A stretch of DNA of 64,000 bases from Gynuella sp. (GTDB lineage Bacteria; Pseudomonadota; Gammaproteobacteria; Pseudomonadales; Natronospirillaceae), in NCBI GenBank assembly GCA_028282465.1, contig JANQHX010000013.1:27642-91641 (forward strand), read 5' to 3'. A program made the position numbers and the translations under genes. Numbering within the stretch: the stretch's first letter is position 1; every line of letters starts with the position of its first letter. Shown here piece by piece: positions 1-23,394 of the stretch. Under the pieces are notes generated by a model. That model was not told the origin of the DNA, ran no database searches, and saw nothing but the letters and a program-made list of their open reading frames with translations.

Positions 1-1518
1 ATCCATATCAGAGATATATTGTTTGATCCATTTGTTAAGCTCTAAGTCTATTTGAGCTCGACTTACCCAAGCGCCAATATTTTCTCTTTGAATCACTTTT
101 AAATAATGGGCAAAGCGGCAGGAAATGAGAATGAATGCAAGCTGCGAATCTAGCTGAGCTTGAATTTCAGTTAAGTCTTCTCCCGGCTTTCTTACACAAA
201 CAGCACTGTAAAAGCCCGCTTTCTCCATTCCTTTGCGTAGAGTGATAGGTATAAAGCCTTCTTTTACAAGATCGCCTTCTACCCTGTCTGATATCATTAC
301 TTCAGTGGGTATTTTCGCTCTTTGAGCACCTCGGCCTGTCTCCAGCCCTAAGGTTTCCAGTACGCCGTTTTCTTCACCCACTATATTTACGTACCAGCGA
401 TACTTTGAAAATGCTTGGGATATTTTAGCTCCTAAGGCCATTGCACCATTACCCCAAACACCTTTGTCTTCACCCTTTTTGAATTTTTCTTCAAAATCAA
501 AACCTAAATTAAGGTTGCCAACATAGGGCTGCCTTAAAACAAATCTGGGCAAACAAAGCGACACATACCTTGAATCAGGAGTGGATCGAAACGAAAGCCA
601 TTTATCAAATGTTGGCTGAGCAAAATGAGAAGTTAAGTCTCTTATGCGACTAAACTCTTCAAAACTCGATAAGCTAAACATTTTAGGTGCAGCAGCAGAT
701 ATAAACGGCGCATGAGAAATGGCGGCAACTTTAGATAAAGACGTAAGTAAGGCTATTTCAGGTACAGACGCATCAAAAGTGTAGTCACCTATGATCAAGC
801 TATAAGGCTCACCACCAAATTGACCAAACTCGTTGGAATAGACTAATTGATAAAGGGGTGATTGAAAGACTTCCGGGCTGTCTTCAAAACTGTCTTGAAG
901 ATCTTCTTTTGAAACAGGTAGTACATCCAGCTTACAATTTTCCCGGAACTCTATCTCTTTCACTAAATACTCTAAAGCTCGCCAGCTTTGCTCTAATTGA
1001 ACAAAAGTTTGATGATGTAATACCGCGTTGAGCTGAAGATTCAGTTTTTCATCAATTCTGGCAATGACTGGCCCCAACTTGTCTGTATCAGACAATGTTA
1101 AGTTTAACTTCGCCATCATCTGTTCAGCTGTTGCCTCATCTATTATTGAAGGCTTCTCAACCAGGCTACAGAGGGAGTCACGGAGGTTTACCAGTTCCCT
1201 AAATCCTGGAATACTTTGGCACAAAAGCTCAGGATGAAAGTCTTCCATCGCTCGAAAGCTTATATTCACATCCAAGTGGGCTATTTTGGAATTTAAAAAG
1301 TTTTCGACCCTAATTTTCAATTTAGGTGACACTGCCGAAAATACACCGCTCATGCTGTTTGAACGTATTTGAATAGGTTCAATATCTTCAAACAGATCAA
1401 CAGAGTTCATTGGATCTAAATCGGAAAGCACCAGAATCTTACAAGGCAATTCTCGTTCAGAACCATCGCGCTTGTCTGTGTAAACCAGACTAATTCTATC
1501 TTGGACAGCATCAACCAT
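1..1518 (-). CDS. TssB-TssC fusion sheath protein (partial, runs off left edge)
   Basis: The frame is open from the ATG at 1518 to base 1, giving 506 codons without a stop. Residues 1-118 or so resemble TssB of the same operon: LPCKILVLSDLD matches LPLKMLVLDDF, and the segment around MEDFHPELL matches MKDFEPEQI. From about residue 135 the protein resembles TssC throughout: LEQSWRALEYLV versus LESTWRGLKFLV, NEFGQFGGEPYS versus AEYGQFGGKPYG, and near the edge RFAHYLKVIQRENIG versus RLAHYIKVLQREHIG. About 60-70 TssC residues should lie beyond the edge. A GAGG ribosome site precedes the ATG, and the tssM stop is 13 bases upstream, so it belongs to the tss operon. Separate tssB and tssC also exist, so this is an additional fused sheath subunit. 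Its role is unknown; a specialised end ring or alternative sheath is inference. Confidence 0.9.
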   Translation of the reverse strand, partial: MVDAVQDRISLVYTDKRDGSERELPCKILVLSDLDPMNSVDLFEDIEPIQIRSNSMSGVFSAVSPKLKIRVENFLNSKIAHLDVNISFRAMEDFHPELLCQSIPGFRELVNLRDSLCSLVEKPSIIDEATAEQMMAKLNLTLSDTDKLGPVIARIDEKLNLQLNAVLHHQTFVQLEQSWRALEYLVKEIEFRENCKLDVLPVSKEDLQDSFEDSPEVFQSPLYQLVYSNEFGQFGGEPYSLIIGDYTFDASVPEIALLTSLSKVAAISHAPFISAAAPKMFSLSSFEEFSRIRDLTSHFAQPTFDKWLSFRSTPDSRYVSLCLPRFVLRQPYVGNLNLGFDFEEKFKKGEDKGVWGNGAMALGAKISQAFSKYRWYVNIVGEENGVLETLGLETGRGAQRAKIPTEVMISDRVEGDLVKEGFIPITLRKGMEKAGFYSAVCVRKPGEDLTEIQAQLDSQLAFILISCRFAHYLKVIQRENIGAWVSRAQIDLELNKWIKQYISDMD

Positions 1519-1531
1519 ACTTTTGGCTACC

Positions 1532-4500
1532 TCAAGGTTTAACCATGAAGAGTTCAACTTTTAAATCTTCGGGCGCATTCGGCCAATAAAGTGCTGCATG
1601 CTCTTTAGACTCCACAGTAGCCCATGCGTCTTGCTTATTATTCAGCTTCACATAGTTGGCATATGCTGTTCCAGGAAAGTTCATTGGCGCATTAACCAGA
1701 GGCGTCATTTCCACACCTGGTAGAGAACGTTGTGCCAGCAAATAGACAGAATCTAATGAAGACAATCTTGCATCATTAACAAATGAATCTTGCCAAACAG
1801 ATGCGGGTTCACTGGTGTTTAAAACCAAATAGTATGCGGTATCTTCACCTACAAAATCTTTGTTGAGATTAGTGAAGAAAACTTCTTCATTTCGCTCCAT
1901 CTCTGCAATTAACTGCCTTTCAGCAGATTGATTACTCCAACAAGATGCAACTCGAGTTGGAAGTGTCAAAGGTACTGTATCAAGAGTTTTGATAACTGGC
2001 TCTTGTCCGAAAATACGATAATTTACGTCTATGTAACGAACGTTATTTTGCAGTAACTGAGCTTCTTGGTTAGGAAAATCTGAGGATTGAAAAATATGCC
2101 TTCCATCCTGAAAATCCTTCAAGAACTTGGCAAAGCCTTTTACTCCGTGATACTCCTTCACCAGCTTTGTTTGCCCAATTTCTACAGTCAAAATGGTATC
2201 CCCACACCGTTCCAGCGACCAATTGAAGTCATGTTGAGTAGGATAGTTATAGTTCTCTAAAACCTGAACGCTATCACTACAATGGAGTTCCAGAAATGTC
2301 GCGTAGGGTGATACTGAAGCACCAGGGTTAGCGCCCGACGGTAGAGTCATCATGGTTACGTTAAATTCATTACCGACAATAAATGCACCTTCTTCAGCTT
2401 GGTTAACTAGATTTAAAAACTCTTCTCTAATTCCAACGGTGCGACCTTTCTCCATCGCGCGCACATAACCACGCTTAAATTGACGATCTATGAAAGGTTG
2501 GGCTTCCTGCTGTAAGTAATTCCACAATACCCCTTGCTCACCTACAATTAAGTTGCCCATTCTATTTGGATCAACACCTTCCAAGGATGCCAGAACATTG
2601 TTCTCCCACAACTCTTGCAACTCACATGCACTTTCTTGAGCCATGAAATCGTAAGCTAGATTAATTGGGCCAAGATAGAGCTTCCAGAACAGTCTGGATT
2701 GTGAATTAGGACGGCCTAACACCTGTTGCAATTGAATCACTGAATTCCAAGCAGAGGCCATTGGGCCATCACCTGATTCAGGAGCATCAGGCGTGGTGAA
2801 AAGCGTCTTCATAGTACTAAGAGACTGTGATCTCAAAGTTGAATTAAATGCCACCAATGACAATGCTTCTTTATATGCATCTACTGCATCTACTGCTTGA
2901 TCTAAACCTGTATCCAATGGGTTCTTCTTATTGCCCTTGGTTGCTTTAGCATGAGCTTTCATGCCTTTCTTGGCCAATTTGCCAACCTTACCTAGTTTAC
3001 CTAAGGCTTTTTTCGTGGCCTTTTTAAGAGCCTTATTGTTACTTTTAGCATCAGGGGAGGTGTAGTTTTGAATCTCCATAAAGTAAGCAAAGCTATCTGA
3101 AGAATTAAATTCCAGACCTGGAAAAACACCCAACTGTTCATGCATCATTGCAATGAAATTAAAGTAAGGGTTATCAGCAGTGGCCATTCGCTCCATAGCC
3201 AGTGTCCATTCTTTTTGGTCACGGAAACGGGTAGCACCGTCAGAGAAACGCTCTGCAAACTCTTCCCAAGATCTTAAATATTCACGCTGATAAAAATCTA
3301 AAAACTCTTCTTGAACTTCTACTAACTCTGGCTCATCTTCATCAACAAGACTAAATTCTTCCATAAAGGCGGCAACAAAATCATAACCGTCAATGGTAAA
3401 TGCAGATGGAACTAATGGTGGATTAGCTAACTTTCTACTACCACCCCAGAAATCATCCAGACTGACGTTCGCAAAGCCTTGTGCATTGGTCCATTCGATT
3501 ATCCAGTTGTAGTCACCATGGTTTCGTTTTACCAAATGAATTAAAGCGGTTTGTAATGATTGTTTTTCCTCAGCCAATAAAATTTCGCTGTCAGACCAAT
3601 CCAGATAGGAGAGATATAACTCATGAAACAGAGTTGAACTGTCATTGCCAACGGAGCTGTTTAACGTTCGAAGAAAATCATCACCAATTTCGTAGACCTC
3701 AATGTCCTTGTCAGTGTTTAACCTTGCTTGGAGGGCATTAATTCTTCTGATTAAACCACCAGCTACAACACTGTTACCATTACTATCAAGATCATCTATC
3801 GTCTGAATAAGTGGCGAGTCGACAGGGTTCAAAATATTTTCTTTAAAGAAGCTGACGTAGGTTTGTTTAAGTTCATCTACATGTCCGCCTTCGCCAAATG
3901 GCAGCCACCAAGGCACCATTTCTTCTGATTTATAGCTGTCTAAGGCAGTCACTAACTCGAGTAATTGGCTGGCAGCATTAAGGCGAGCATCAAAAGTATT
4001 CAAGTCACTTAGCTCAACTTGCTGATACTCTTCATTTAAGGCTTGTAAGGTGCTGAAGTTTTCTTCATACATTACAAATAGAGCTGTCGCCGCAATGAAG
4101 GTAACAGCACCAGCGACACCAAATACGTACTTACGTGTTGCGTTTTTAATCCTTTCAATACTTGGCAGACTTTCGTATAAGCCTCGATCTCTTGGCAAGA
4201 CTCTGGTGAAGAACTCATGCAAGAAAGCACCTCGACCTTTTTCTACTCCAGCTTCTTGCTTAACACTAGAGCTAAAATACAGCCCTCTAAATTTAGGAGC
4301 CTCTTGGTAGGCATTTCCTTTCAATGCAGTTGCAATGAAAGTGTGTAAACCATTTCGAATACTTTCTAGATTTCCAGGCAAGGTTAATAAACTATTGTCC
4401 GGAGCATCCGTTCGCTCCATGATCATTAGCCTTAACTCTTTAATACGGTCTAACACCGTATCCAAGCCCTTGTCGATAATGATGTTAATATCACCAGACT

Positions 4501-5368
4501 CGGACTCGTTAAGATATCCCATGGGCTGCATTAAACTTTCGTTCGGTAGGTAACTACTCCACTCAGAAAAACCTTCTACCAAATCGCATTTTGTAACCAT
4601 TAGATAAACTGGAACTTTAATTTCCAGCTTTTCCATTAAACTATTGATCGTCATCCGAACTTGGCGACCTTCTTCAAGCAGCTCTTCTTCCGTACAATTA
4701 ATTAACCTGTCCGCCGCAACGGCAAGTACTAAACCGTTTAGCGGTTCTTTCTGTTTGTGCCGAGACAACATTGAAAGCAATGTATCCCATTCCTTTCTGT
4801 CCCGCTCAACCATGTCGGGAACCGCATATCTACCCGCGGTATCAATCAAAATACCCTCTTCGTAAAGCCACCATTCTAAATTTAACGTAGAACCGTCTTC
4901 GTGAGTTGATAGATCGATGCCTGGGGACAGTAATTTAGAATTTCTTAACGAAGTACTCTTACCTGATGTTGGCCGGCCAATAATCATATACCAAGGCAAC
5001 ACATACAGTGGGTCACCTTTATGCTTTAATTGAGACTTCTTAAGAGCTCGAATAGTTTTTCGCCATCTACTTTTTAGTGAGTGCATCAACTCAGCTGATG
5101 ACATACCTAGATCTTTAGGATAGTTCTCTTCATATTCAGCCTTAGTCAAAGACTCTTTGATTTGAGCTTTTGCCTTCATTCGAACGTATAAACGATAAAT
5201 TGCTCGAATAAGAATAAATAGTAAAAAACCGCCAACAAGAGTCACCAGCCCCACGGCTAAAGCGAGCATTAATTCCATATCAAAAATCAATAACGCCACG
5301 CTGGCGACCACACCAATTATCAGTAAGGATAAAAATAACCAGCCTAAAAACTTAAAGAATCCTTTCAT
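1532..5368 (-). CDS. tssM: T6SS inner-membrane complex protein TssM (IcmF) with TssK-like C-terminus
   Basis: At 1278 residues this is a full-length TssM. It has two membrane segments at about residues 5-60, a cytoplasmic GTPase-like domain with Walker A motif GRPTSGKST near residue 131, a third membrane segment near 412-432, and a long periplasmic part. TssM forms the trans-envelope channel with TssL and TssJ. Two things are odd. Residues about 774-813 form a strongly basic Lys/Ala/Gly insert. The last 100 residues (nt 1535-1834) align without gaps to the last 100 of TssK, sharing YYL-LNT, RSLPGV, YANY and AP-DL. The gene starts 2 bases after the tssL stop. Confidence 0.97.
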   Translation of the reverse strand: MKGFFKFLGWLFLSLLIIGVVASVALLIFDMELMLALAVGLVTLVGGFLLFILIRAIYRLYVRMKAKAQIKESLTKAEYEENYPKDLGMSSAELMHSLKSRWRKTIRALKKSQLKHKGDPLYVLPWYMIIGRPTSGKSTSLRNSKLLSPGIDLSTHEDGSTLNLEWWLYEEGILIDTAGRYAVPDMVERDRKEWDTLLSMLSRHKQKEPLNGLVLAVAADRLINCTEEELLEEGRQVRMTINSLMEKLEIKVPVYLMVTKCDLVEGFSEWSSYLPNESLMQPMGYLNESESGDINIIIDKGLDTVLDRIKELRLMIMERTDAPDNSLLTLPGNLESIRNGLHTFIATALKGNAYQEAPKFRGLYFSSSVKQEAGVEKGRGAFLHEFFTRVLPRDRGLYESLPSIERIKNATRKYVFGVAGAVTFIAATALFVMYEENFSTLQALNEEYQQVELSDLNTFDARLNAASQLLELVTALDSYKSEEMVPWWLPFGEGGHVDELKQTYVSFFKENILNPVDSPLIQTIDDLDSNGNSVVAGGLIRRINALQARLNTDKDIEVYEIGDDFLRTLNSSVGNDSSTLFHELYLSYLDWSDSEILLAEEKQSLQTALIHLVKRNHGDYNWIIEWTNAQGFANVSLDDFWGGSRKLANPPLVPSAFTIDGYDFVAAFMEEFSLVDEDEPELVEVQEEFLDFYQREYLRSWEEFAERFSDGATRFRDQKEWTLAMERMATADNPYFNFIAMMHEQLGVFPGLEFNSSDSFAYFMEIQNYTSPDAKSNNKALKKATKKALGKLGKVGKLAKKGMKAHAKATKGNKKNPLDTGLDQAVDAVDAYKEALSLVAFNSTLRSQSLSTMKTLFTTPDAPESGDGPMASAWNSVIQLQQVLGRPNSQSRLFWKLYLGPINLAYDFMAQESACELQELWENNVLASLEGVDPNRMGNLIVGEQGVLWNYLQQEAQPFIDRQFKRGYVRAMEKGRTVGIREEFLNLVNQAEEGAFIVGNEFNVTMMTLPSGANPGASVSPYATFLELHCSDSVQVLENYNYPTQHDFNWSLERCGDTILTVEIGQTKLVKEYHGVKGFAKFLKDFQDGRHIFQSSDFPNQEAQLLQNNVRYIDVNYRIFGQEPVIKTLDTVPLTLPTRVASCWSNQSAERQLIAEMERNEEVFFTNLNKDFVGEDTAYYLVLNTSEPASVWQDSFVNDARLSSLDSVYLLAQRSLPGVEMTPLVNAPMNFPGTAYANYVKLNNKQDAWATVESKEHAALYWPNAPEDLKVELFMVKP

Positions 5369-5370
5369 GG

Positions 5371-6042
5371 TCAGTTCACCAAATTAACTAAACTATTTAA
5401 TGCATCTCTGATTTGAAACGCGTAATACATGAAGCTACCACCAAGTATTGCCATAGGAAGAAACAGCAACATAGGAATTAGATTCATTCGTTTTTTAGAT
5501 TCACGGCCTTCAAGCTGCTCCTTGCTGAAGGCTGAACGAAATAGCACCGTATTTTCAAGGTTAGTTTGCGCTTCATCTGGTAATAACAAACCCATATTAA
5601 ACTCTCTCACTGATTCGAGCTTTGGTCTGTCACTAGGTGGAAAATATTTGCCTTTAAAACCTAGACCTAAACACAATAAGAATACTTCCCTTACGGATTT
5701 ATCATCACCATGTCTATTAAGGCTGTTTAACCTATCGTAAAACTCTGCGCCAGCCTGCGTGGTCTGAAAATACTTCCTTTGAAGAGAATGCTTAAACCAA
5801 GCTCGCCTTTCACTCCATTTTGAAGTCAGAAGCTTTTCATCAACATATGCAGCCACCGCATACCATGCTTGATCGAAAATCTCGGACTCAAACCCCAGGT
5901 CTTCAGCATCCATCTTACCTTTCTGATAAAACTGGTCATACTTTAACGCCAGATTCTCAACATCCATCTGAGATTCTGTAATAGTTTCGACAGTATCTCG
6001 AGTAAACAGGATGGCAGGAATAAATAAATCAACCAGTCTCAT
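5371..6042 (-). CDS. tssL: T6SS membrane complex protein TssL (DotU family)
   Basis: This 223-residue protein has a cytoplasmic DotU-type helical domain (DQAWYAVAAYVDEKLL, then a segment with LCLGLGFKGKY) and one C-terminal membrane segment at about residues 192-212. It ends shortly after that segment, so it lacks the peptidoglycan-binding extension found in longer TssL proteins. TssL binds TssM in the inner membrane and contacts the baseplate through TssK. It lies between tssK and tssM with gaps of 2 bases on both sides, so translational coupling is likely. Confidence 0.95.
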   Translation of the reverse strand: MRLVDLFIPAILFTRDTVETITESQMDVENLALKYDQFYQKGKMDAEDLGFESEIFDQAWYAVAAYVDEKLLTSKWSERRAWFKHSLQRKYFQTTQAGAEFYDRLNSLNRHGDDKSVREVFLLCLGLGFKGKYFPPSDRPKLESVREFNMGLLLPDEAQTNLENTVLFRSAFSKEQLEGRESKKRMNLIPMLLFLPMAILGGSFMYYAFQIRDALNSLVNLVN

Positions 6043-6044
6043 AT

Positions 6045-7430
6045 CTATTTCCTCAATATTACAAGCTCTATCTGCAAGTCTTTAGGAGCTTCTTGCCAAT
6101 ATACAGCCACATTGCGTTGCCTACGTATTTTGCTCCATTGTTCATCGGAGGAATTAATTCGGAAATAATTAGCGTAGGTTTTCTTTGGTAATCCAATAGG
6201 CGGGTTATTAATTGTTCTTAAACTCACACCAGGTAGTGACCTATCTGCTAGGTCTATTACAGTGTCTGCTGATGCCATTTTTGCAGAGGTTTGAAATGAT
6301 TCAGTCCACTGAGACATCGGTGTCTCTGTATTTAAAATAAGATAGTAGTCAACCTGTTGTGTAAAGAAGTTATCTGGTATGTCTGCACTGAATATTTCGT
6401 CTTCAAAGCGCATTTCTACCATATACTGCGGCCCTATCGTGATTTCATTCATCAAGGTTGTAAGTAATGAACGAATCCCATAAAAGCACTTACCTAAATT
6501 GACATGGTCGTACGGCGCAACAAGCTTTTCACCGTCCGATCTCTCCCCCAACATATTAACCATGCTAGAAAAATTACTGACTGTACCTAGTAATTCTCGT
6601 AATACACAGTAAACATCCCAAGGGTGAACGCTTTGTGTTTCACAATAATGATATAGTTTTGGGATGTATTGGCTTAACGATTGGAGCGCAAATCTGTATC
6701 TCAGAATATTAGGATCAAATTCAGAAGCACCGTTTTCACTGGAACCAGAATAATCTAATTGCAGCGCCCTACCGGTGACCTCGTCGCGAATTTCCTTGAT
6801 TAAAGAAAACAAGCCTGAGTTACCATCAATGGAAATCATGGGGGGAATGAAAGCAGTATTGAACTCGAATTTATCACCTACCCGTTGAACCTGTGCCACA
6901 GGAATAACATGATATTCATTTAACAAGTCGCTTTCAGTATCAAACAATATGTCCAGCTTGTATTCTAGCTCTTGAATTTGAGCATCCGGGCCGGATTGGT
7001 ATAGGTCAGAAACAGGTTTTGGATCTGCTTCTGTATAAAATCTGGTATTAACGTCGCGAATTTTGCTGGAATCTTGAATTACTGTCGTATTTTCTTTTCC
7101 AACACGAAGTTTTCTAAGACCAATAAAAACTGTCAGTGGTTTATCTGGATCAACTTGTTCCTCAGCAAAAGAACGATCAGCAATTTGAGCATTTGAAGGA
7201 ACAGACACATGAGTTCCATCAGGAAATACTAGTTCCCCAGCTTGAACTTCACAGCTTCTGTTTGTAAGTGCAGATTGACTCAGTTCTAAACTTATCACCC
7301 CCCAAAAATATGGGTGAATGTACTGCCTTAAAGGCTCCAGTAATGACTTCTGGTATGCTTCGTTATATTGGAAATGTTGTGGTTGAATAAACATTCCCTG
7401 ATGCCAGAATACTGGTTTGAACTTACTCAC
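6045..7430 (-). CDS. tssK: T6SS baseplate protein TssK
   Basis: The 461-residue TssK family protein opens with the typical VFWHQGMFIQPQHFQ motif. TssK trimers connect the baseplate wedges to the TssJLM membrane complex through their C-terminal head domain. The start is a GTG with a strong AAGGAG site 7 bases upstream (5' end at 7430). The final 100 residues (nt 6048-6347) are closely matched by the C-terminus of TssM in the same operon. It lies between tssJ and tssL. Confidence 0.97.
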   Translation of the reverse strand: MSKFKPVFWHQGMFIQPQHFQYNEAYQKSLLEPLRQYIHPYFWGVISLELSQSALTNRSCEVQAGELVFPDGTHVSVPSNAQIADRSFAEEQVDPDKPLTVFIGLRKLRVGKENTTVIQDSSKIRDVNTRFYTEADPKPVSDLYQSGPDAQIQELEYKLDILFDTESDLLNEYHVIPVAQVQRVGDKFEFNTAFIPPMISIDGNSGLFSLIKEIRDEVTGRALQLDYSGSSENGASEFDPNILRYRFALQSLSQYIPKLYHYCETQSVHPWDVYCVLRELLGTVSNFSSMVNMLGERSDGEKLVAPYDHVNLGKCFYGIRSLLTTLMNEITIGPQYMVEMRFEDEIFSADIPDNFFTQQVDYYLILNTETPMSQWTESFQTSAKMASADTVIDLADRSLPGVSLRTINNPPIGLPKKTYANYFRINSSDEQWSKIRRQRNVAVYWQEAPKDLQIELVILRK

Positions 7431-7453: not shown

Positions 7454-8053
7454 TTAAATTATGCGAACTGAAACAGGGTCAACGGTTTCTATTTTTTTTG
7501 TTTCATCTCTACCGAGTGAAACTCTTACATAAAGCTTATCTGGAACGGCTTTCGCTTCATTAGCAACTAAACCTAAGTTAGCTAGGACTAAATCAACTGC
7601 TCCGCGTTTAGCTGCTTTTTCAGGAATTTCGATTACTCTCACATCAAGTTCTGGGTTAAGGCCAAAATAACCAACGATGAGGCCCACAAATTTAGCCCCT
7701 TGAGAACGAGAATAAACCGCTGTTTTCGATTCACCAGGCTGTACAATTACCCGAGTGAAGTTACTAACAGTGTCATCAATTTTACCTTTATTTAATAATT
7801 CTATTGCGCCTTGCTGAGTCGCAGTCAAGCCGTCGAAGGTGTTTGGATCTGATAATTGAAAGAGTCCAATCACTAAAGAATGGGGTCTGCCACTAATGGC
7901 ATTTAAATCTGCAGGGCTATCCACTTGAATCGTTATTGCACGGTCTTCATAAACCCAATCTTCCGCGGCAACTTCTAATACTGGTTTACCTGCGCATCCA
8001 GATAGAAGAGTACCAATCACAATCCATTGCAATATGTTTCTAAGTTTAATCAT
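7454..8053 (-). CDS. tssJ: T6SS outer-membrane lipoprotein TssJ
   Basis: This 199-residue protein has a lipoprotein signal peptide ending in the lipobox LLSGC (Cys at residue 20). The mature domain is of TssJ/SciN type, with VDSPADLNAISGRPHSLVIGLFQL-like beta strands and a segment rich in pairs typical of the family. TssJ anchors the TssM periplasmic part to the outer membrane. It sits between hcp and tssK in the core operon. Confidence 0.92.
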   Translation of the reverse strand: MIKLRNILQWIVIGTLLSGCAGKPVLEVAAEDWVYEDRAITIQVDSPADLNAISGRPHSLVIGLFQLSDPNTFDGLTATQQGAIELLNKGKIDDTVSNFTRVIVQPGESKTAVYSRSQGAKFVGLIVGYFGLNPELDVRVIEIPEKAAKRGAVDLVLANLGLVANEAKAVPDKLYVRVSLGRDETKKIETVDPVSVRII

Positions 8054-8117: not shown

Positions 8118-8633
8118 TTAAGCTGACATACCGTCAGAGAAAGAGTACTGACCTTCTGTACCACCAGGCTCATGTGACCAGGTTACTGCGTTCGCACGCA
8201 GGCACAAAGTCTCTGTAGGTGCAGCACTTTCACCAGGGGCAGTCGAAGTTGTGCTCATGTTAGTTTTAATTGAAGTTAACACTGCATTTTCTAGCTCTTC
8301 GGTGTAGAACAATTCTTCTTCACCACTGGCTGAAATCCAATAGTACTCAATAGTTACAGTTAATTGCTCGCCTGTTGCTAAAGCATTTTTTAACAGCGGA
8401 GTTGCCTTATCAATTTGCTTGGTCAATTCGAATTTTTTGATTTTTGGCAAGCTATTAATCTGACCACTAACGGCATCTGTATCACGACCAATTTCAGAAT
8501 CAATATTAAAAACTGCACAGTAGTCTTCCATACCAGACTGGTATGCAGTGCCTACACTGTCTTCACTCAGGGCGCCTGAAGAAATCTCACCTTGAGAAAC
8601 GCCTTCGAATGTGGCGAACGCATGAATAGCCAT
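8118..8633 (-). CDS. hcp: Hcp (TssD) inner-tube protein
   Basis: Hcp of 171 residues, beginning MAIHAFATFEGVSQGEI. The ATG at 8633 is preferred over the adjacent upstream GTG because AAGGAG sits 6 bases before it. Hcp hexamers stack to form the tube propelled by the sheath. The C-terminal part carries a Thr/Ser/Ala-rich loop (around residues 125-145) and ends WSHEPGGTEGQYSFSDGMSA. It lies 19 bases downstream of tssC. Confidence 0.93.
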   Translation of the reverse strand: MAIHAFATFEGVSQGEISSGALSEDSVGTAYQSGMEDYCAVFNIDSEIGRDTDAVSGQINSLPKIKKFELTKQIDKATPLLKNALATGEQLTVTIEYYWISASGEEELFYTEELENAVLTSIKTNMSTTSTAPGESAAPTETLCLRANAVTWSHEPGGTEGQYSFSDGMSA

Positions 8634-8652
8634 CACTAGCTCCTTATTTTAA

Positions 8653-12335: not shown

Positions 12336-12969
12336 AAACTTTCCTTGTAGTATTTTTCACGACTTGAAACCAATCAATTATTTTTGTCTCGTGAATTTAA
12401 GAATAGCCTTAACCATCTTAGATCATGGTTAATATTTAGCTATCTATCGTCACAAACTTGCTTAGCAGTATCAAGTAACCATGAATAATGTAAAACCAAA
12501 GCGAAAAATACAACGGTTTATTTTGAGTTTCACACTCGACTTTTCACAGAACAACGAAACCCTGATACTGTCAACAACCCACTTCACACTTTTAATAATT
12601 ATTTTGTGTGTACGCCCACAAAGTAGAGCCTGCAATAATTATTTATCTCCTAAATTTAATTAAACCGCTTGAGAATAATTTAATAATTAAAAATTGATTA
12701 TCATTTTCGAAATTAACTACACCGACTCCAGTTTCAGAAACTTACGCGATAAACGTGACACATCCCAAGAACATTAACATGGCGACAGTTTCATTAAATT
12801 AATTCAGGAATTATCATTGGCTGTTTAAACATAATCCACTGTTGCCTTGCAGGCATGGATTACTAAAAATAACGGAATTCGTCTTTAAGAGCTTACACCC
12901 TAGTAAGCCACTATTGTTCAATAGGGATTTTTGGCCACTCAATTATTAAAATGGCGACAGGGAATACTA
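12336..12969. other. AT-rich divergent intergenic region between tssA and the giant lipoprotein gene
   Basis: No gene is supported in these 634 bases. The region must hold the leftward T6SS promoter and the rightward promoter of the giant gene. A short motif ATTAA(A/C)ATGGCGACAG occurs near 12774 and again near 12947. The 13-base stretch at 12696-12708 matches half of a Fur-box consensus at 11 positions, but the other half is poor. No convincing sigma-54 site was found. Confidence 0.5.
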
Positions 12970-15900
12970 ATGAAACTGTTTAATAGAAATTGCTACACGA
13001 TTTTACTTTCTAGCCTATTAAGTTTGGCGTTAATCGCCTGTTCTGGCTCAGAGAGTGGCGGTGGCAACACAAACACTGCGCCATCTGCAGATACCCTTAC
13101 CTTGGAATCTAAGAGTTTTTTCGAAAGCCATAGTGGTTCACAAGCTATTAACTTTAAAATTAGCAGCACCATAGATCAGCAAATTACTTATTCAACTCAA
13201 GACATTAGCGCAGCGGCAGGCAGCGATTATGTTGCTGTGATCGAACAAACAGTAAGTTTGACAGCAGGTCAAGAAACAGACCTCTCTGTAATTATTAATG
13301 GCGATACAAATGTTGAGGGCACCGAAGCCTTCTACCTTGAAGTAACAGCAGAGAATGGCGGCAAACTCAGTTCTGTACAAACCATTGTTAATGATGATTT
13401 CCCTAGCTTATCAGTGAGCTCCGCTAGCATTGAAGAGGGAGCAAGTAACGAGAGATTCCTAAACTTCACCTTAACTTTAGACGAACCTACTGTAGATGAA
13501 TTTAGTGTTTTGGTGAGTACTGAAGACGTACTTGCTGCAACAACGGAAATTGCTGAGCCGGGTGTTGATTTCGAACCAATAGACAATCAAACATTTATTT
13601 TCGAGCCAAACTCGGACAGTTTAGTCATTGAAGTAACTATTTACAGCGATCAAGAAACAGAACCCAATGAAACACTCACCCTACTTGTCACGCCCCTAGG
13701 TCAAGACGAAAATGGCTATGTCCAGACGGTCCAAACAGCAAACGGTACTATCAATAATGATGATGGGCCCGGCCTAAACCTACCAGAAATTGGCAGCTTT
13801 ACCGTCATAGCTGTGAATGAACTTGGTGAAGAAGTAGCCCTTGAAAACATCAAGGAAGGCGAAGTTGAAGAACTGATCTACACCCTGAATCTCACGGATT
13901 CAAACAATCTCCAAGAAGCGTTTTCAATGCTATACGAAGTAAAACGCAATCCAAATGATGAAAGCACAAATACCCTTTATGCTTTGGTGTCTGACTTAGC
14001 AGAGGAATCCGATGTCAGCTTGGCCACCCCAACAGAGAACAGTGCGATTGGCGTTCTTTCGATACCCGTAGGTGAATCCAGTAGCAGCTTTACAATAAAC
14101 CTAACAGACAATGATATTTTAGAAGATACTGAAACGCTTTACGTTGAACTTAACAATGTGGCTGGTTATGTCTTTGAAGATTATGAGCTGGTCATTCAAG
14201 ACAACGACTCTGCTAAAGCCGTTATTAACGAAATTATCTACGATAGATGTGTGGATGCGGACAATATACTGCAAAATGAAAACGCTCTACTGAGTGATTC
14301 AGACGCGGATTCCTACCATCATGCGCAAGCCTATGAGGGTACAACTGATGATTTCATTGTCGCATCAGATGAATCAGCCTGCAGTTCAGAGCAAGCCAGC
14401 ACCCTAACATACAGTGTGTCTTTGACTCATCAACCACCCTTTACAATCACGGCTAAAGCAACCACCGAAGAGCTAGAAGACAAAACCGTATTTAACGAAG
14501 CCACTCAAACTGACAATCTCATTTACAAAAAAGCCAGAAGAAACATTGACTATAACAATATCTCTAAACAACTAGAGTTTACGCCCGACAATTGGCAGCA
14601 CCTAACGTTTAAAGTTGAGCTTGCAGGCGACACCGAATACGAAACTACTGAAGCATTCGCGATTCATCTTGAGAATGCCGACGGTTCCAGCATGCTTCAG
14701 GGCCAAGAAAAATATGCAGAAACCAATGACCGACTTATTACCTACATATTGAATGATGACATTCCTCTCAGCCTAGATATGGGTAATAACGGTGTGATAG
14801 ACGAAGGCGGAACCGGGAACGGATCCAGCGCTGTCATTACTGGCCAGTTAGTAAGAGCTTCTCTGGGTAGAACCCAATTTATTTATCGAACCATGCCCTA
14901 CACAGGTACTGACGATGAAGCGGCGATTATTGAATACGACAGCACCCAAAGTGAAAACGCTGACTTAATCTGCCAGCAAGGTTCAATCAGCTTCTCTGAT
15001 GGCCAAATTACGCCAGATCAGGATATCTCGATTAAAGTGACGGGTGATGGACTGATCGAAGGTGCTAATAAGTTTGTCGTCATGATTTTTGATGCTAATG
15101 AAACCTCAGCCACAGATTGTTCGGCTGAAGTTCAAGGTCTTGCCGATAGGGCACTCACCCAAATAGAAGTCACAATTGCCAACGACGACAAGCTCACGGT
15201 TCAATTCAGTGAGGCTGAATTTGATGTAGATGAACTCACAGGATCTACTGTCAGCCACGTCAATCTACCCACTCTTAAAATTGACGGCGCCTTAATCAGT
15301 GAAGAAGTCACCGTCAGCGTAGACATGACTTTAACGTCGGCAGAATCCAACGACTTTACGCTGACAAGTAGTAATAGTTTTGATGCAGGCACTGCAAGAT
15401 TGACCGTATCAGTACCCGCCGGTGACTACACCCTTCCAGACGGCAGCGAAGCAGGCCAAATCGAAAAAGACATCACCATTAATGGCTACAGCATTGTCGC
15501 TGATAATACCCTTGAATTTACGGAGTCTGCGTCATTTAGCATACCCACCAGCGACACCGTTAACCCTGATATTGAACTGGCAGAAGAGGGTCATCATTCG
15601 GCATTGCTCAATATCAGAAATGACGATTTGCTGACTGTGTACCTCAAAGACGGGAATGTAGATACTTCAGAAGCGAGTGCAACCAGCAATAACTCAATCG
15701 TGTTGACTGGCGTCACGTTCGATCAAGCTCCAGGAGAAACCCCTCCGATGCAAATCAACATACAAAGCCTGACGCCTACTGATCCAGACACAAAGATAGC
15801 GACACCTGATATTGATTATGTCCCTTATACTCAAACAGTTTCTGTGAACCCAGCAAATTTCAGCGAAACGGAAGTGATCAGCCATGAAGTTGATATTGAG

Positions 15901-18900
15901 ATAGCTATTGTTACCGCTGAGAACTTGATTGAGCATGATGAAGTGTTTGAACTAGAGGTTTCGGAAGGGATCGGCTCTGAAGAATATTTAAATTTATTGG
16001 TAGATAGCGACACTCAGCCAACAGTTGCCACTCATACAATCATTGATGATGACCTACTCACCGCAAGCTTAATCACCACCTCAGACATTACTAATGTCAG
16101 TGAGGCAAACGGAGAAATTGAGGTACGCATTCAACTCTCTGGTGCAACCATTGACGACAGCTCACCGGACCTAACACTCAATCTCGCGACAACTGATGGC
16201 AGTGCGATTTCACCCAAGGATTTCACAGCCATTGCAGCAACGCTTGATTTAAATGATCTAACCACTATTAACTCCCAGTCACTTCAAGACGACCTACAGC
16301 TTGACGATCAAGCAGTCATTGCCCAAAGCATTACCGTGGTCAATGACGACTACATTGAAGACAATGAAAGCTTAGTGGCCAGCATTACCCTACCTGAGGG
16401 TGAGGCAAGATTAATACTACCCGACTCAGCATCTAGCGAAGTGTCGACCCAAACCTATTGGATTGACAATGATGACAAGTTCACCGCAAGCTATCTAAGT
16501 ATTCCCACGTCCATTAAAGAACCTGAAGAACGACTCATTCCAGACGGAGAGCCAAGCGCTGGCGATATTGCAACCGCTGAAGCCTCATTTACTCTGTCCA
16601 TTCATAACAATGGTAAATCTTTTGACCCAGATGGAACTCTTGAGTTAACCCTTCAGCCAACTGCGAGTGGTACTGACTGTGTTTACAACAGCGCCGATGA
16701 CTTACCAACAGAAGATGGTACGTGCAGCATAAGTAGTGATTTCGAATTTACTAGCCAACCGATCACCATAGACCAAACAACTTCATTCAGTGATTTAGAT
16801 GGGACTTCCACAACCCAACTACCTATCAAAGTATTTGGGGATGATCTGGTTGAAATCTCTGAATCCATTCAGATCGATCTTGATGATGACTCAGAAACCA
16901 ATAGCACATTTTTTATAGCGAACACTTCAAGCACTGAACAGTCAATCGTTATCGAAGATACTGAAGGTGTAAGCATTTCGGTGATTGAAATTACTAACAC
17001 TGATTCGGATTATCAGACCGAATCAGACTCTACTAGAAACTTCATGGCAGTATTTAGCGGCTCAAGTTTTCCAGATAATATTGAAGCAACCGTGACTGTC
17101 AGAACACTCACATCAGACGAACAAGCCAGTCGAAACCCTGCTGAAGCCAATGCTGATTTTCAGGAATTTGGTAGCATAGAGTTAGAGCTTTCAGGTGAAG
17201 ACACCTACAAAACCGCCAACTTCAATTTAGATCTGGCAGCCTATTCGTCTGATAGAGTCGTTGAATACGACGAATGGTTTGCAATAGACATATCCATTAA
17301 CACCGATCTCGGTGATGTTGATGAGGAAGCGAATACCAGTACCACTCCTTTATTGGTGCCTATTTATAATGATGACCAAATAAGTATTTCGGTATTAGAT
17401 TCAACCATCACTGAACCTGATGCATCAGAAACTCAAACATTTAATCTATCGGTAACAGGCGCAACCTTCGATACTGACAGTCCTGATGCCACCATCATCT
17501 TAAATACAGTAGATGGTAGCGCAGTCGCAGGTAATGACTATGGTGGCCTCATCAACCAAACCATTATTATTGGCAATAGTAATGTTAATCTGAGTGATGC
17601 TAGTAGTTCGCAAAACTTACCGGTCAATCTAACCGTGCTGGGTGAGTACTTAATTGAAACTAACGAACAGCTGAGTGTTACGATCAGTGATGCAAATGAA
17701 TACGCGACTATCGACCAGAGTACTGGAAATATCACCATCAATAATGATGACAGAATTAATGTCGCGGTAATGGATGCATCCATTACCGAAACAAACATTA
17801 CCGAAACTGAAAGTTTCCAATTGGAGCTGACAGGTGCAGTTTTTGACAGCAGCAGTCCAAATGCCACAATTACCATCAACACAGGCAATGTTGAAGCCAT
17901 AGCGGGTTCAGATTACACCGCGATATCCAATCAAGAGATTATCCTGAACAGCGCTAATGTTACCCTGGCAGATGAATCATCAACTCAGCGGATATCAGTT
18001 GATCTGACGGTGCTGGGTGACCAACTGGTGGAAATCAATGAAACATTGACAGCATCCATCACAGAATCGAACAGCTATGTCCAAGTAAGCGACCCAACAG
18101 GCACCATCACCTTAACTAATGATGACCAAATCAGCGTCTCTGTGCTCGGTACTTCAATAACTGAAACCGACGCCACAGCTAACGAGAGCTTCAACTTGCA
18201 AGTGACCGGTGCAATATTTGATGGTGAAAGCCCTGATGCAACTGTCACATTAAATACGGCAAACGGTTCAGCAACCGCGGATAATGACTTCACCGCTATT
18301 GCTAACCAAACAATCATTTTGAATAGCGGCAATGTTTTCCTGGCAAGCGCAACGGGCACCCAAAACATTGCCATCAACTTGAGTGTGTTGGGTGAGCAAC
18401 TGATCGAGGTTGACGAGACTTTCGATGCAACCATTAGTAACCCTAATGACTATGCAACCATCTTGGAAGCAACAGGCACCATTACTTTAACTAATGACGA
18501 CCAAATCAGCGTCTCCGTGCTCGATGCTTCAATAGATGAAACCGACGCCACAGCTACCGAAACATTCAACCTGCAAGTGACCGGTGCGATATTTGATGGT
18601 GACAGCCCTGATGCTACCGTTACACTAAATACCGCTAACGGTGACGCAACTGCCGGCAATGACTTTACCGCTATTGCCAACCAAACGATCACTTTGAATA
18701 GCAGCAATGTTTCTCTGACAAGCGCAACAGGCACCCAAAACATATCCGTCAGCTTGACTGTGCTGGGTGAGCAACTGATCGAGGTTGACGAGACTTTCGA
18801 TGCAACCATTAGTAACCCTAATGACTATGCAACCATCTTGGAAGCAACGGGCACCATCACTTTAAATAACGACGACCGAATCAGCATCTCTGTGCTCGAT

Positions 18901-21900
18901 GCTTCAATAACTGAAACCGACGCCACAGCTAACGAGAGCTTCAACCTTCAAGTGACCGGTGCAATATTTGATGGTGAAAGCCCTGATGCAACTGTCACAT
19001 TAAATACCGCTAACGGTGACGCAACTTCAGGCAATGACTTTACCGCTATTGCCAACCAAACAATCACTTTGAATAGCAGCAATGTTTCCCTGGCAAGTGC
19101 AACGGATACCCAAAACATTGCCATCAACTTGACCGTGTTGGGTGAGCAACTGATCGAGGTAGATGAAACCCTCAGTGCAACCATCAGCAGCCCGAACGAT
19201 TACTCGAGTGTCGATAATGCTACTGGCACCATCACTCTAAATAATGATGACCGAATCAGTATCTCTGTGCTCGATGCTTCAATAGATGAAACCGACGCCA
19301 CAGCTACCGAAACATTCAACCTTCAAGTGACCGGTGCAATATTTGATGGTGACAGCCCTAGTGCCACCGTCACATTAAATACCGCTAACGGTGATGCAAC
19401 TGCAGGCAATGACTTTACCGCGATTACTGACCAAACGATCACTTTAAATAGCGGCAATGTTTCCTTAGCAAGCGCAACGGGCACCCAAAACATATCCGTT
19501 AGCTTGACTGTGCTGGGTGAGCAACTGATCGAGGTTGATGAGACTTTCGATGCAACCATTAGTAACCCTAATGACTATGCAACCATCTTGGAAGCAACAG
19601 GCACCATCACTTTAAATAATGATGATCAAATTAGAGTGTCAGTATTAGACTCGACCATCACTGAAACAGATGGTGAGGCAACCGGAACATTCGACCTCGA
19701 GGTAACTGGTGCAATATTTAATGATGACAGCCCCGATGCCACCGTCACATTAAATACAGTAAACGGGGAAGCAACTGCAGGCAATGACTTCTCGGCCATT
19801 ACTGATGAAGCGATTACCTTGAATAGCAGCAATGTTTCCCTGGAAAGCGCAACGGATACCCAAAATATATCCATCAACCTTACAGTACTAGGTGAAAATC
19901 TAACTGAAAATGATGAGACATTAACTGCCACCATTTCCGAGCCTAACAGCTATGCATCAATTACAGATGCATCAGGAACCATCACGATTGATAATGATGA
20001 CGTGTTTACTCTCGCTTTTACGGGATCAGAGTTTTCTCAGCAAGAGCCCGCTGAGAATACAGATACAGACACTGTTTTGACTGTCACGGCAACCGTGTCG
20101 AATAATGGAAACACACTCGCCACAGGTCTTGAGCCTAGCTTCAGTATTGAATTGGCCGATGATTCAGCCACCCTAAATGTGGATTATGAAAATACAGACC
20201 TAGGAACTACTTTTAACATCTCTGACTTAGTTTTTACTGCAGGTACAGCAACAGTAACTCATGATATTGCCATTAATGGCGACAACCTGGCGGAATCGGA
20301 TGAACTGATCAATGTATCTTTTAATCGCTCCGATGAAAATTTACTAATGCTAGCAGTGAGCAATAGTACTACTGTTGCTAGAATCAGAGATAACGATGGT
20401 GTTGCCATTACCTTTGATACAAATGCGTTAACCTGTTTAGAAACTGATTCAGATACAACCTGTACTCTACCCATAAACCTAACGGGCTCCGAAGTAACAG
20501 GAGAAACGATTTCTGCAGATGTAACTGTTACTTTGGATACAGTCGAGAATGCAGATTTTTCGATCACCTGGCCGGGTACAGAAGATGAAATTAGTTTTAC
20601 TGGACTAGGTACTGCAAACCTAACTTTCACGATTACAGGGGACGATTTCGTTGAAGTAAATGAGCAACTTTCTTTAAGTTTAAGCTCACCTAAAGTGACA
20701 CCTGCCAACATGTTAAAAACAACTGACATACAGTTGGGAAGTGATGCAACCGTAACTATTACTAACGATGATTTCGCTCAGTTAAGCTTGGGAGCAACAA
20801 CAGCATATCCTGAATCAGCTAATCAAAATCTGGAGCTAATTGTTAGTGGAGCCATTTTAAACAGTGACAGCCCGACGATTTCAGTAGATGTAAATACTTT
20901 TGTAACTGACGGAATGCCAGACATTCTTACCGCGGAAGACGCAGACCTGACCGAAATCGATCAAACTATTAATCTCTACGAAGAGTTTGGTGGGACAAGC
21001 ACTGTAGCCTCTGGAACGACAATTAATATTGATTTAGATTTTAATGAAGACAATCTTGTTGAAGACTCGGAATCATTTAGGGTTCAATACTCAACCACCT
21101 CAGACTACGTGACATCCGGTACTCGCACCGGAACTCGAAATCACAGTATTGCCAACAACGACTTCCTCAATTTATCACTAGTGACCGAAAACTTCACAGA
21201 AGCAGCTGGGCAAGATTTCGTGCTACAAATAAGTGGTGCTTCTCTTGACACTGACTCTCCAGATATTGGTGTTACATTCTCAACCTCAACCAGTGGTTAC
21301 ACGTCCGAAAGTGAAGACATTACTGACGCCATAACCGTTTCTGAAGTTCCGATTTCAGCCATAGGTGATCTAACGACCAACATTGATATAGTTGATGATA
21401 CTGCACTCGAAGACACGGAAACCTTCCAAATCAGTTTCAACGTAGCTAATGGCGCTGATTACACATCAAGCGACGCAGGAAACGCCGATTATTCAATTAT
21501 TGATAATGACACCTTAATCATTAGCTTTGCCGATGACCTGTTAATCAGTCAGGAAGATGACGGAACAGGTAACAATAAAACCTACAATTTATCGGTTCAA
21601 TTAAGCAGTGCAACTGGCACCACAAGTATTGAGGACGCTCAGTCCTTCAGCATTACAAAATCAACCACTGGTAATTATATGGCGACAGAAGATCTGGACG
21701 GCACTCAGGAAAGTGGAGAAGATTTTTCTATTGGAGATACATCAACCATTCCTTTACCAGCATCAAACAATCTGGAAAGCATCAACATCCCCATTACTTT
21801 CTACGGCGATAGCACATTCGAATTTAATGAAGCCATTGATTTTAGTTTAAATGCTACTGGTAATTTAGGTGTTGGAACAGTTGCTGCGGCTCGCCTTCTA

Positions 21901-23394
21901 ATACAAAACGATGATATTGACTTCTCTATGGTTGATGGTACTAACGTGGGTGTTTGTCTTGATGATACTGGTCTGGATGCTGATCGTTGTAGCGATGCGG
22001 ATGGTTCACTAGATGCCAGCAGCACGCACCCGAATCAGGACGGGATGTTGGGGCAGCTTCCAAGCACTTACACTTCAACAGTTGACGAGTCGACGGTTAG
22101 ATTTGGTGTTTATGATGAAAATAAAACTTGGGGAGAAATTAAGGATGTCATACATTTAGATACAGCATCAAATTGGAACAACGCGTTCGTCTTAATTGAT
22201 TTAGGAGATAACGAACACCTTTTCTATTTATCAAGTGACAGCGGTTTACCAACACTTAGCAACATCTCAAACTTAACAACATATCAATTGAACTTATCAA
22301 CTGATAATGAATATAACTATGTCCACTCTAATTTAATAAACGATGGTAACGCTTATACTTACTATTTTAATTATTCAGTAATTATAGATGGGTCAGAGAT
22401 TTGGCAATCAAGCAATATCATTGGAGGTACCAATGTTAGTTATTCTACAGATAGTGTGATTGATGACTTAGCAACTGCAACCGTTGGTTCTGGCTGGAAC
22501 TGCGTAACCGACCAAACCACTGGCCTAACCTGGGCTTATGATTCTTCTGATACAAGTGGCGTTTCGCATGCTGACATAACCAGCACAGATCCAACAATTA
22601 ATCCAGCCAGCATTGCCAACACCAACAATATTTGTGGCAGCAGCAACTGGCGCGTACCTACCCTAACTGAGCTAACCAAGTTAACTCAGTTTGGTACAGC
22701 CAATGAATTTATTAATACCTCAGTATTTAGTGGTCTAAATTTGAGCATTGGATTAAGCAACACTGAATTGTTCTACTGGTCGAGCAACACGGGTATAAAC
22801 TTTAATAGAATCATATCTTTCTATAGCGCAACCATTTCCGAGGCAACAGGCACTAGTGACGGTAGCACTTCTCATTTAGTATTGCTCGTCAGTAGTAATA
22901 CAAATCAAAATCAGCCAACCTTGGTAAGCGGCTCTACTGAAGATGACGTTTGTGATCTCAACCCAATCGAAACCAATCATAGATACACCATTGAAGGTGA
23001 CCATGTGACCGACAACTGGGCGAACTTAACTTGGTACAACACAGCACAATCACCAGCGGTTTATAACACTTCAGATGCCTGGAAAGATGTTTTAGATACG
23101 GTGTATGGTTTTGGGCTCCCCGATGGGGCTGATGACGATAGTTATGGTGAAGCGACAGGCTTGTATCGTTTACCCACCATTAAAGAATTACATACTCTGT
23201 TTGACTATCAATGCGGTGATTTATTAAACAGCTACTTTACCTTTGTAGATAGTTCTTATACTGCAGCGTCTAGCACACCAACACTCACTGGAGATGGAAT
23301 ATGGGGAGTCGACCCAACAACAGGAAACTTCACTCAGTTACCGACGACGAATTTAGTCAGTAGTAGCGTTCAGTTGTTTTTAATAAGACAGTAG
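12970..23394 (+). CDS. Giant Calx-beta repeat surface lipoprotein with C-terminal Lcl/DUF1566-like domains
   Basis: The frame extends upstream to 12931, but the ATG at 12970 follows an AGGGA site and starts a clean lipoprotein signal (lipobox LIAC, then SGSE), giving 3474 residues. The mature protein is a chain of roughly 100-130-residue beta-sandwich repeats, each ending in a (N)DD-type calcium motif preceded by a DxxxE-DE pattern, typical of Calx-beta domains. Seven consecutive units are exactly 125 residues each. The last 450 or so residues carry two Lcl/DUF1566-like domains, with TGLTWAYDSS, NWRVPTLTEL, YWSSN, and later YRLPTIKELHTLFDY. Ser after the lipid Cys suggests outer-membrane sorting. 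The likely role is an extracellular calcium-stabilised adhesin; this is inference. It lies divergently to the T6SS operon. Confidence 0.88.
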   Translation: MKLFNRNCYTILLSSLLSLALIACSGSESGGGNTNTAPSADTLTLESKSFFESHSGSQAINFKISSTIDQQITYSTQDISAAAGSDYVAVIEQTVSLTAGQETDLSVIINGDTNVEGTEAFYLEVTAENGGKLSSVQTIVNDDFPSLSVSSASIEEGASNERFLNFTLTLDEPTVDEFSVLVSTEDVLAATTEIAEPGVDFEPIDNQTFIFEPNSDSLVIEVTIYSDQETEPNETLTLLVTPLGQDENGYVQTVQTANGTINNDDGPGLNLPEIGSFTVIAVNELGEEVALENIKEGEVEELIYTLNLTDSNNLQEAFSMLYEVKRNPNDESTNTLYALVSDLAEESDVSLATPTENSAIGVLSIPVGESSSSFTINLTDNDILEDTETLYVELNNVAGYVFEDYELVIQDNDSAKAVINEIIYDRCVDADNILQNENALLSDSDADSYHHAQAYEGTTDDFIVASDESACSSEQASTLTYSVSLTHQPPFTITAKATTEELEDKTVFNEATQTDNLIYKKARRNIDYNNISKQLEFTPDNWQHLTFKVELAGDTEYETTEAFAIHLENADGSSMLQGQEKYAETNDRLITYILNDDIPLSLDMGNNGVIDEGGTGNGSSAVITGQLVRASLGRTQFIYRTMPYTGTDDEAAIIEYDSTQSENADLICQQGSISFSDGQITPDQDISIKVTGDGLIEGANKFVVMIFDANETSATDCSAEVQGLADRALTQIEVTIANDDKLTVQFSEAEFDVDELTGSTVSHVNLPTLKIDGALISEEVTVSVDMTLTSAESNDFTLTSSNSFDAGTARLTVSVPAGDYTLPDGSEAGQIEKDITINGYSIVADNTLEFTESASFSIPTSDTVNPDIELAEEGHHSALLNIRNDDLLTVYLKDGNVDTSEASATSNNSIVLTGVTFDQAPGETPPMQINIQSLTPTDPDTKIATPDIDYVPYTQTVSVNPANFSETEVISHEVDIEIAIVTAENLIEHDEVFELEVSEGIGSEEYLNLLVDSDTQPTVATHTIIDDDLLTASLITTSDITNVSEANGEIEVRIQLSGATIDDSSPDLTLNLATTDGSAISPKDFTAIAATLDLNDLTTINSQSLQDDLQLDDQAVIAQSITVVNDDYIEDNESLVASITLPEGEARLILPDSASSEVSTQTYWIDNDDKFTASYLSIPTSIKEPEERLIPDGEPSAGDIATAEASFTLSIHNNGKSFDPDGTLELTLQPTASGTDCVYNSADDLPTEDGTCSISSDFEFTSQPITIDQTTSFSDLDGTSTTQLPIKVFGDDLVEISESIQIDLDDDSETNSTFFIANTSSTEQSIVIEDTEGVSISVIEITNTDSDYQTESDSTRNFMAVFSGSSFPDNIEATVTVRTLTSDEQASRNPAEANADFQEFGSIELELSGEDTYKTANFNLDLAAYSSDRVVEYDEWFAIDISINTDLGDVDEEANTSTTPLLVPIYNDDQISISVLDSTITEPDASETQTFNLSVTGATFDTDSPDATIILNTVDGSAVAGNDYGGLINQTIIIGNSNVNLSDASSSQNLPVNLTVLGEYLIETNEQLSVTISDANEYATIDQSTGNITINNDDRINVAVMDASITETNITETESFQLELTGAVFDSSSPNATITINTGNVEAIAGSDYTAISNQEIILNSANVTLADESSTQRISVDLTVLGDQLVEINETLTASITESNSYVQVSDPTGTITLTNDDQISVSVLGTSITETDATANESFNLQVTGAIFDGESPDATVTLNTANGSATADNDFTAIANQTIILNSGNVFLASATGTQNIAINLSVLGEQLIEVDETFDATISNPNDYATILEATGTITLTNDDQISVSVLDASIDETDATATETFNLQVTGAIFDGDSPDATVTLNTANGDATAGNDFTAIANQTITLNSSNVSLTSATGTQNISVSLTVLGEQLIEVDETFDATISNPNDYATILEATGTITLNNDDRISISVLDASITETDATANESFNLQVTGAIFDGESPDATVTLNTANGDATSGNDFTAIANQTITLNSSNVSLASATDTQNIAINLTVLGEQLIEVDETLSATISSPNDYSSVDNATGTITLNNDDRISISVLDASIDETDATATETFNLQVTGAIFDGDSPSATVTLNTANGDATAGNDFTAITDQTITLNSGNVSLASATGTQNISVSLTVLGEQLIEVDETFDATISNPNDYATILEATGTITLNNDDQIRVSVLDSTITETDGEATGTFDLEVTGAIFNDDSPDATVTLNTVNGEATAGNDFSAITDEAITLNSSNVSLESATDTQNISINLTVLGENLTENDETLTATISEPNSYASITDASGTITIDNDDVFTLAFTGSEFSQQEPAENTDTDTVLTVTATVSNNGNTLATGLEPSFSIELADDSATLNVDYENTDLGTTFNISDLVFTAGTATVTHDIAINGDNLAESDELINVSFNRSDENLLMLAVSNSTTVARIRDNDGVAITFDTNALTCLETDSDTTCTLPINLTGSEVTGETISADVTVTLDTVENADFSITWPGTEDEISFTGLGTANLTFTITGDDFVEVNEQLSLSLSSPKVTPANMLKTTDIQLGSDATVTITNDDFAQLSLGATTAYPESANQNLELIVSGAILNSDSPTISVDVNTFVTDGMPDILTAEDADLTEIDQTINLYEEFGGTSTVASGTTINIDLDFNEDNLVEDSESFRVQYSTTSDYVTSGTRTGTRNHSIANNDFLNLSLVTENFTEAAGQDFVLQISGASLDTDSPDIGVTFSTSTSGYTSESEDITDAITVSEVPISAIGDLTTNIDIVDDTALEDTETFQISFNVANGADYTSSDAGNADYSIIDNDTLIISFADDLLISQEDDGTGNNKTYNLSVQLSSATGTTSIEDAQSFSITKSTTGNYMATEDLDGTQESGEDFSIGDTSTIPLPASNNLESINIPITFYGDSTFEFNEAIDFSLNATGNLGVGTVAAARLLIQNDDIDFSMVDGTNVGVCLDDTGLDADRCSDADGSLDASSTHPNQDGMLGQLPSTYTSTVDESTVRFGVYDENKTWGEIKDVIHLDTASNWNNAFVLIDLGDNEHLFYLSSDSGLPTLSNISNLTTYQLNLSTDNEYNYVHSNLINDGNAYTYYFNYSVIIDGSEIWQSSNIIGGTNVSYSTDSVIDDLATATVGSGWNCVTDQTTGLTWAYDSSDTSGVSHADITSTDPTINPASIANTNNICGSSNWRVPTLTELTKLTQFGTANEFINTSVFSGLNLSIGLSNTELFYWSSNTGINFNRIISFYSATISEATGTSDGSTSHLVLLVSSNTNQNQPTLVSGSTEDDVCDLNPIETNHRYTIEGDHVTDNWANLTWYNTAQSPAVYNTSDAWKDVLDTVYGFGLPDGADDDSYGEATGLYRLPTIKELHTLFDYQCGDLLNSYFTFVDSSYTAASSTPTLTGDGIWGVDPTTGNFTQLPTTNLVSSSVQLFLIRQ
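17371..19995 (+). repeat. Seven in-frame 375-bp tandem repeats (Calx-beta units)
   Basis: Units begin at 17371, 17746, 18121, 18496, 18871, 19246 and 19621, each at the codons for DDQI or DDRI, with an exact 375-base period. Units 3-6 (18121-19620) are nearly identical at the DNA level, including long shared tracts coding AIFDGDSPDATVTLNTANG and DETFDATISNPNDYATI. Units 1, 2 and 7 have diverged. This pattern fits recent unit expansion by recombination within a surface protein gene, and copy number may vary between strains. Confidence 0.95.

Follow-up and report, generated by a model that had tools for sequence, protein, structure and literature searches.

The type VI secretion system (T6SS) locus analysed here raises the question of why a TssM protein carries a copy of the TssK head domain at its C-terminus. 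The window, i.e. the whole 64,000-nucleotide stretch of Gynuella sp. DNA, opens with this locus on the minus strand (tssA, tssB, tssC, hcp, tssJ, tssK, tssL, tssM and a tssB-tssC fusion), and Pfam matches showed that the locus continues beyond the window with a second hcp together with tssE, tssF and tssG. A genome search detected one TssK and one TssM. The features relevant to the question are:

1-1557, minus strand: TssB-TssC fusion identified by profile matches, truncated by the window edge (full gene 576 aa)
1532-5368, minus strand: TssM, 1278 aa
1535-1915, minus strand: TssK-head-like domain, TssM residues 1152-1278 (BLASTP, PF05936, TIGR03353, AlphaFold)
1916-1936, minus strand: short linker that joins the Cys-Trp end to the head homology, TssM residues 1145-1151 (alignment with 15 relatives)
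1937-5368, minus strand: body of an ordinary TssM, residues 1-1144, with PF14331, three hydrophobic segments and a TssM-type C-terminal domain
5371-6042, minus strand: TssL, short form of 223 aa (DotU, PF09850, E=1e-31), with no further domain
6045-7430, minus strand: complete TssK, 461 aa, head at residues 335-461 (nt 6048-6428)
7454-8053, minus strand: TssJ lipoprotein (PF12790, E=7e-13)
43566-44477, minus strand: VgrG-type match, on the same contig as the T6SS locus
50479-53007, plus strand: ClpV, on the same contig as the T6SS locus

The sequence-only reading had counted 41 identities between the final 100 residues of TssM and those of TssK in an ungapped comparison, and we reproduced this count exactly. 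Shuffling the comparison 10,000 times gave a mean of 6.1 and a maximum of 17 identities, and the best alternative ungapped placement along TssM gave 14. The homology proposed for nt 1532-1834 was confirmed but proved to be longer (nt 1535-1915, TssM residues 1152-1277): BLASTP aligned TssM 1152-1277 to TssK 335-460 without gaps at 47/126 identical residues (110 bits, E=1e-29). PF05936 (TssK) matched TssM 1153-1276 at profile positions 305-429 of 429 (E=4.5e-19; 69 bits against a cut-off of 23.4, and 72.7 bits in the genome search), and TIGR03353 (TssK) matched residues 1158-1275 (E=2.4e-17). No match to the TssK shoulder and neck (PF05936 positions 1-304) was found in TssM; since only positions 305-429 match, the protein is a carrier of a TssK head and not a TssK. 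The family motifs RSLPGV and AP-x-DL are retained. A PDB sequence search with the tail, run to E=10, returned TssK alone, in four distinct sequences of which 5m2y 'TssK C' was the best (E=7.2e-4), and the AlphaFold model of the tail (pLDDT 90) matched TssK in the PDB, adopting the fold of the solved heads. The assignment of the segment as a TssK head is thus borne out by the sequence profiles, the PDB sequence matches and the structural match of the model, and the profile, BLASTP, structure and shuffle results together exclude chance similarity.

The body in front of the head is that of a TssM. PF14331 scored 178.3 bits (cut-off 25), and a model of residues 850-1278 was confident over much of the TssM C-terminal domain; all seven of its matches with E<=0.001 were chains of the TssM C-terminal domain or of the membrane core complex (6ixh, 4y7l, 4y7o, 4y7m). 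The TIGR03348 equivalog score remained below its cut-off (260.5 against 388.15 bits, matched only to profile position 535 of 1168), and the protein is therefore filed as a divergent-subtype TssM by Pfam, structure and operon rather than as a TIGR03348 equivalog. In an alignment with 15 of 63 relatives, the body was colinear to the end with these proteins, which stop at or near a Cys-Trp pair corresponding to window residues 1143-1144. This pair lies within the last 60 residues in 61 of the 63 relatives; it is terminal in 44 and followed by 1 to 25 residues in 17, and the two outside the pattern are a truncated protein (P0061) and one ending in Cys without Trp (P0064). The window TssM has 1278 residues, compared to a median of 1140 in the relatives. 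The TssK head is appended in frame behind a complete TssM C-terminus and does not replace it. Saccharospirillum-type TssMs (L018 8679-12185, P0002, P0011 and P0012) extend beyond Cys-Trp by ~24-25 residues in which Pro, Val and Gln are frequent, and longer C-terminal extensions could have started from such a stretch.

We then asked how rare the fusion is. In a collection of 5.8 billion sequences clustered at 90%, 64 proteins shared the TssM C-terminal region and PF05936 was present in one, the window protein. The head is absent from all 62 relatives whose end is intact (P0061, the 63rd, is cut short), and no other head-profile match was found among the relatives below E=1; this excludes the explanation, named beforehand, that the segment is common to canonical TssMs. 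A search with the tail alone retrieved only the window protein among 87 candidates, its reach being 0.55 to 1.75 times the length and shared short exact words. Genome surveys of overlapping samples yielded no second head-only match in a TssM-length frame at the level of the family (22 genomes, 12 with a match), the order (194 and 39, with the tail as query), the class (369 and 71) or the phylum (398 and 88); the last two could miss a weak candidate because scoring was limited to four candidates in each genome. In G418, a frame of 1019 aa that contains a full TssK looked on reading like a high-G+C open frame without a second gene, and an 847-aa frame with a full TssK appeared in G708 in the phylum survey. 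Scanning genome contigs with the tail as query confirmed nothing, and a viral scan found no match. The contig scan with the TssM alignment gave 80 loci. Among loci L018-L143, which include repeats such as L018 and L065, 111 frames matched TssM, 115 matched the head and three matched both, all three being the window's own gene retrieved thrice. L018, from the same family, has an identical gene order, a TssM without the head and a TssL also of 223 aa, and the sister TssKs P0065 and P0066 (77% and 67% identical) lie on short contigs with their TssM outside view. The suggestion that such a fusion had not been described agrees with our literature search, which found no TssM-TssK head fusion in the portions of the publications accessible to it.

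Directly behind tssM lies the whole tssB-tssC (VipA-VipB) fusion gene (L033 9469-11199), and separate tssB and tssC genes are also present. Its probable start ATG (1518-1516) follows the tssM stop, and a GAGGT before it overlaps that stop (both by eye). Similar fusions are found behind tssM in five other distinct loci of the same T6SS type (L018/L065, L066, L067, L068 and L070), and the TssB part of the fusion is far less conserved than its TssC part. The locus also has two different Hcp-type genes, one beside tssC (window 8118-8636, minus strand) and one beside the fusion (L033 8974-9453, minus strand), which, taken with the fusion, may point to an alternative tube and sheath set besides the first. 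Near the T6SS, a 3487-aa open frame (12931-23394, plus strand) with many near-identical ~110-residue repeats and a lipoprotein-like start (by eye) looks like a large repetitive surface protein.

To place the origin of the head copy, we compared it to other TssK heads. The tail shares 42-47% identity with the P0067-P0069 heads and 37% with its own TssK, whose head is itself 55-59% identical to those of P0067-P0069. In a tree of 113 distinct heads from 122 rows (short and identical rows dropped; 127 columns; output carrying a warning on long rows), the tail fell into a clade with its own TssK and P0065-P0069 with support of 100/100, the tree leaving the branching order inside the clade unsettled. 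The tail branch measured 2.13, compared to 0.09-0.39 for the other six tips. Within the limits of 127 columns and this long branch, a duplication of tssK in this lineage followed by fast change would fit these data best. A second T6SS of the genome as donor is excluded by the single TssK and single TssM that the genome search detected.

In a drift simulation, a real TssK-head gene piece (L018) was randomly mutated to the tail's 47% identity in sets of 400 copies and scored with a profile of 121 heads that left the tail out. Only 6 of 400 unconstrained copies were stop-free (mean score 54, maximum 84), and a second set of 400 in which stops were forbidden reached a mean of 57 and a maximum of 87. 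The tail scored 125.7 bits and the starting head 181.1, and none of the 800 simulated copies reached the tail score. The tail also keeps 22 of 31 family-conserved columns compared to 16 of 42 other columns (p=0.009). A family signal so far above drift indicates that the fold of the fused head is maintained. Conserved polar positions were kept less often (8/19) than apolar ones (22/30; p=0.04) at the 70% threshold but without significance at 80% or 90% (p=0.17 and 0.38), which weakly supports an altered surface around a preserved core; the long branch would also fit weak constraint. The lack of cysteine in the tail provides no evidence, because the sister TssK heads have none or one. A head that merely folds harmlessly, without a function of its own and under selection only against misfolding, would agree with its occurrence in a single genome, with the long branch and with the changes at the most conserved head columns, of which the tail keeps 23 of 33 (10 changed) and its own TssK 30 (3 changed). 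We nevertheless regard this as unlikely, given an open frame and a signal that drift at equal divergence failed to produce.

Hydrophobicity identified segments in TssM at residues 11-29, 36-54 and 415-433 and none later, so the unusual topology that the sequence-only reading had allowed for is not supported. By the known TssM arrangement, everything after residue 433 is predicted to be periplasmic. Outside the window's own gene, loci L018-L143 (repeats included) hold 108 TssM frames, 76 of which reach the end of the TssM profile, and the four longest ends were inspected. L122 (7060-10983) has a C-terminal LysM behind Cys-Trp (E=3.3e-13). L117 (2259-6662) has a SPOR match that was above cut-off when the end was scanned alone (6.9e-5) and below it in the whole protein (0.0018), and L125 (6989-11242) has a weaker SPOR match behind Cys-Trp, just under cut-off (6.6e-4) and absent in the whole protein. 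In the delta-proteobacterial TssM of L111 (7134-10946) there is only an insertion, charged and helix-like, immediately ahead of the final Cys-Trp. Both domain families, LysM and SPOR, bind peptidoglycan, and their presence here suggests that the C-terminal end of TssM faces the periplasm. We infer that the head of the window TssM is likewise located in the periplasm. The LysM and SPOR-like domains also suggest that in some lineages TssM itself may be anchored to the cell wall; our literature search found no work joining TssM with LysM, SPOR or peptidoglycan binding in type VI secretion.

The same domains at the same C-terminal place raise the idea that the head now grips peptidoglycan or another part of the envelope. 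Studied systems mostly anchor via TssL, according to the available part of PMC7614798, and the TssL of the window is short and has no further domain. We consider this account distinctly improbable, however: TssK heads bind protein in the studied systems, no LysM or SPOR match up to E=1 was found in the window TssM, and L018 also has a 223-aa TssL but no tail. The sequence-only reading had further proposed that the tail mimics, competes with or replaces TssK contacts, which would place it in the cytoplasm or have it made separately from an internal start. The fold and both motifs are retained and there is an in-frame ATG at residue 1156, but the predicted topology and the domains of periplasmic type that other TssMs carry at this end make this very unlikely, and the only candidate ribosome site, AAAGG, lies 15 nt upstream (by eye), too far for a good one. 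A consensus error erasing a stop after Cys-Trp, or a chimeric assembly, is highly implausible even on one contig of a 110-contig draft genome with no second copy in the protein collection, as the tail fits its surroundings in base composition (its GC3 is 0.34, that of the TssM body 0.37 and that of tssK 0.34), tssM is followed directly by the next gene of the operon, and at only 37% identity to its own TssK the tail is not a misplaced copy.

We therefore return to a TssK head that would lie in the periplasm and make contacts among TssM copies or with TssJ, a reading to which we assign a probability of about one half. The window's own complete TssK would still perform normal docking, and a periplasmic head would have the usual TssK docking contacts out of its reach. 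As far as the accessible parts of the sources describe, the C-terminal domain of TssM contacts TssJ, and so the outer membrane, in studied systems (PMC10564176; PMC7614798), and a head ~7 residues behind this domain would thus sit near TssJ, one per TssM. In Acinetobacter, according to the available portion of PMC10564176, the self-association of TssM is controlled by a change in its C-terminal region that is specific to the lineage. Most economically, the fused head would add a contact between TssM copies or to TssJ, and it would likely serve the channel as an additional point of contact and not as the docking part that it usually is. Evolution shaped the TssK head to hold the membrane complex from its inner side. 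It is possible, and we propose it only tentatively, that copies of this baseplate connector head, one on every TssM, make up a ring below the outer membrane, and that this ring holds TssJ or adjacent TssMs and controls channel opening. If true, a phage-derived baseplate domain can enter the bacterial membrane complex, two parts that are usually given separate origins, and the TssM C-terminus would be a site to which different lineages add domains of different kinds, here a TssK head and elsewhere LysM or SPOR-like domains. The fused head would also be a natural experiment on TssK head binding outside the cytoplasm.

Compared to the heads of known TssKs (PDB 5m2y, 5m30, 5y0e, 6giy; C-terminal part of PF05936), the window domain belongs to the same sequence family, has the same modelled fold and spans the whole head (305-429), but it lacks shoulder and neck, is joined to TssM and is predicted to be periplasmic, and its evolution has been faster than that of the TssKs in the same clade. 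With canonical TssMs (IcmF, ImpL, VasK; PDB 4y7l, 4y7o, 4y7m, 6ixh) the window TssM shares PF14331, the three hydrophobic segments, the C-terminal domain and the place in the operon; these relatives end at or near Cys-Trp, whereas the window TssM is 134 residues longer. The Acinetobacter TssM with its GS-linker likewise has a lineage-specific C-terminal change, which the accessible text of PMC10564176 ties to self-association and outer-membrane anchoring. That change consists of a short glycine-serine stretch within the C-terminal domain, in a system without TssJ, whereas here a whole domain is appended and TssJ is present. The TssMs of L122, L117 and L125 carry their extra domain at the same end as the window TssM, but theirs is from a peptidoglycan-binding family, whereas that of the window is from the machine's own baseplate.
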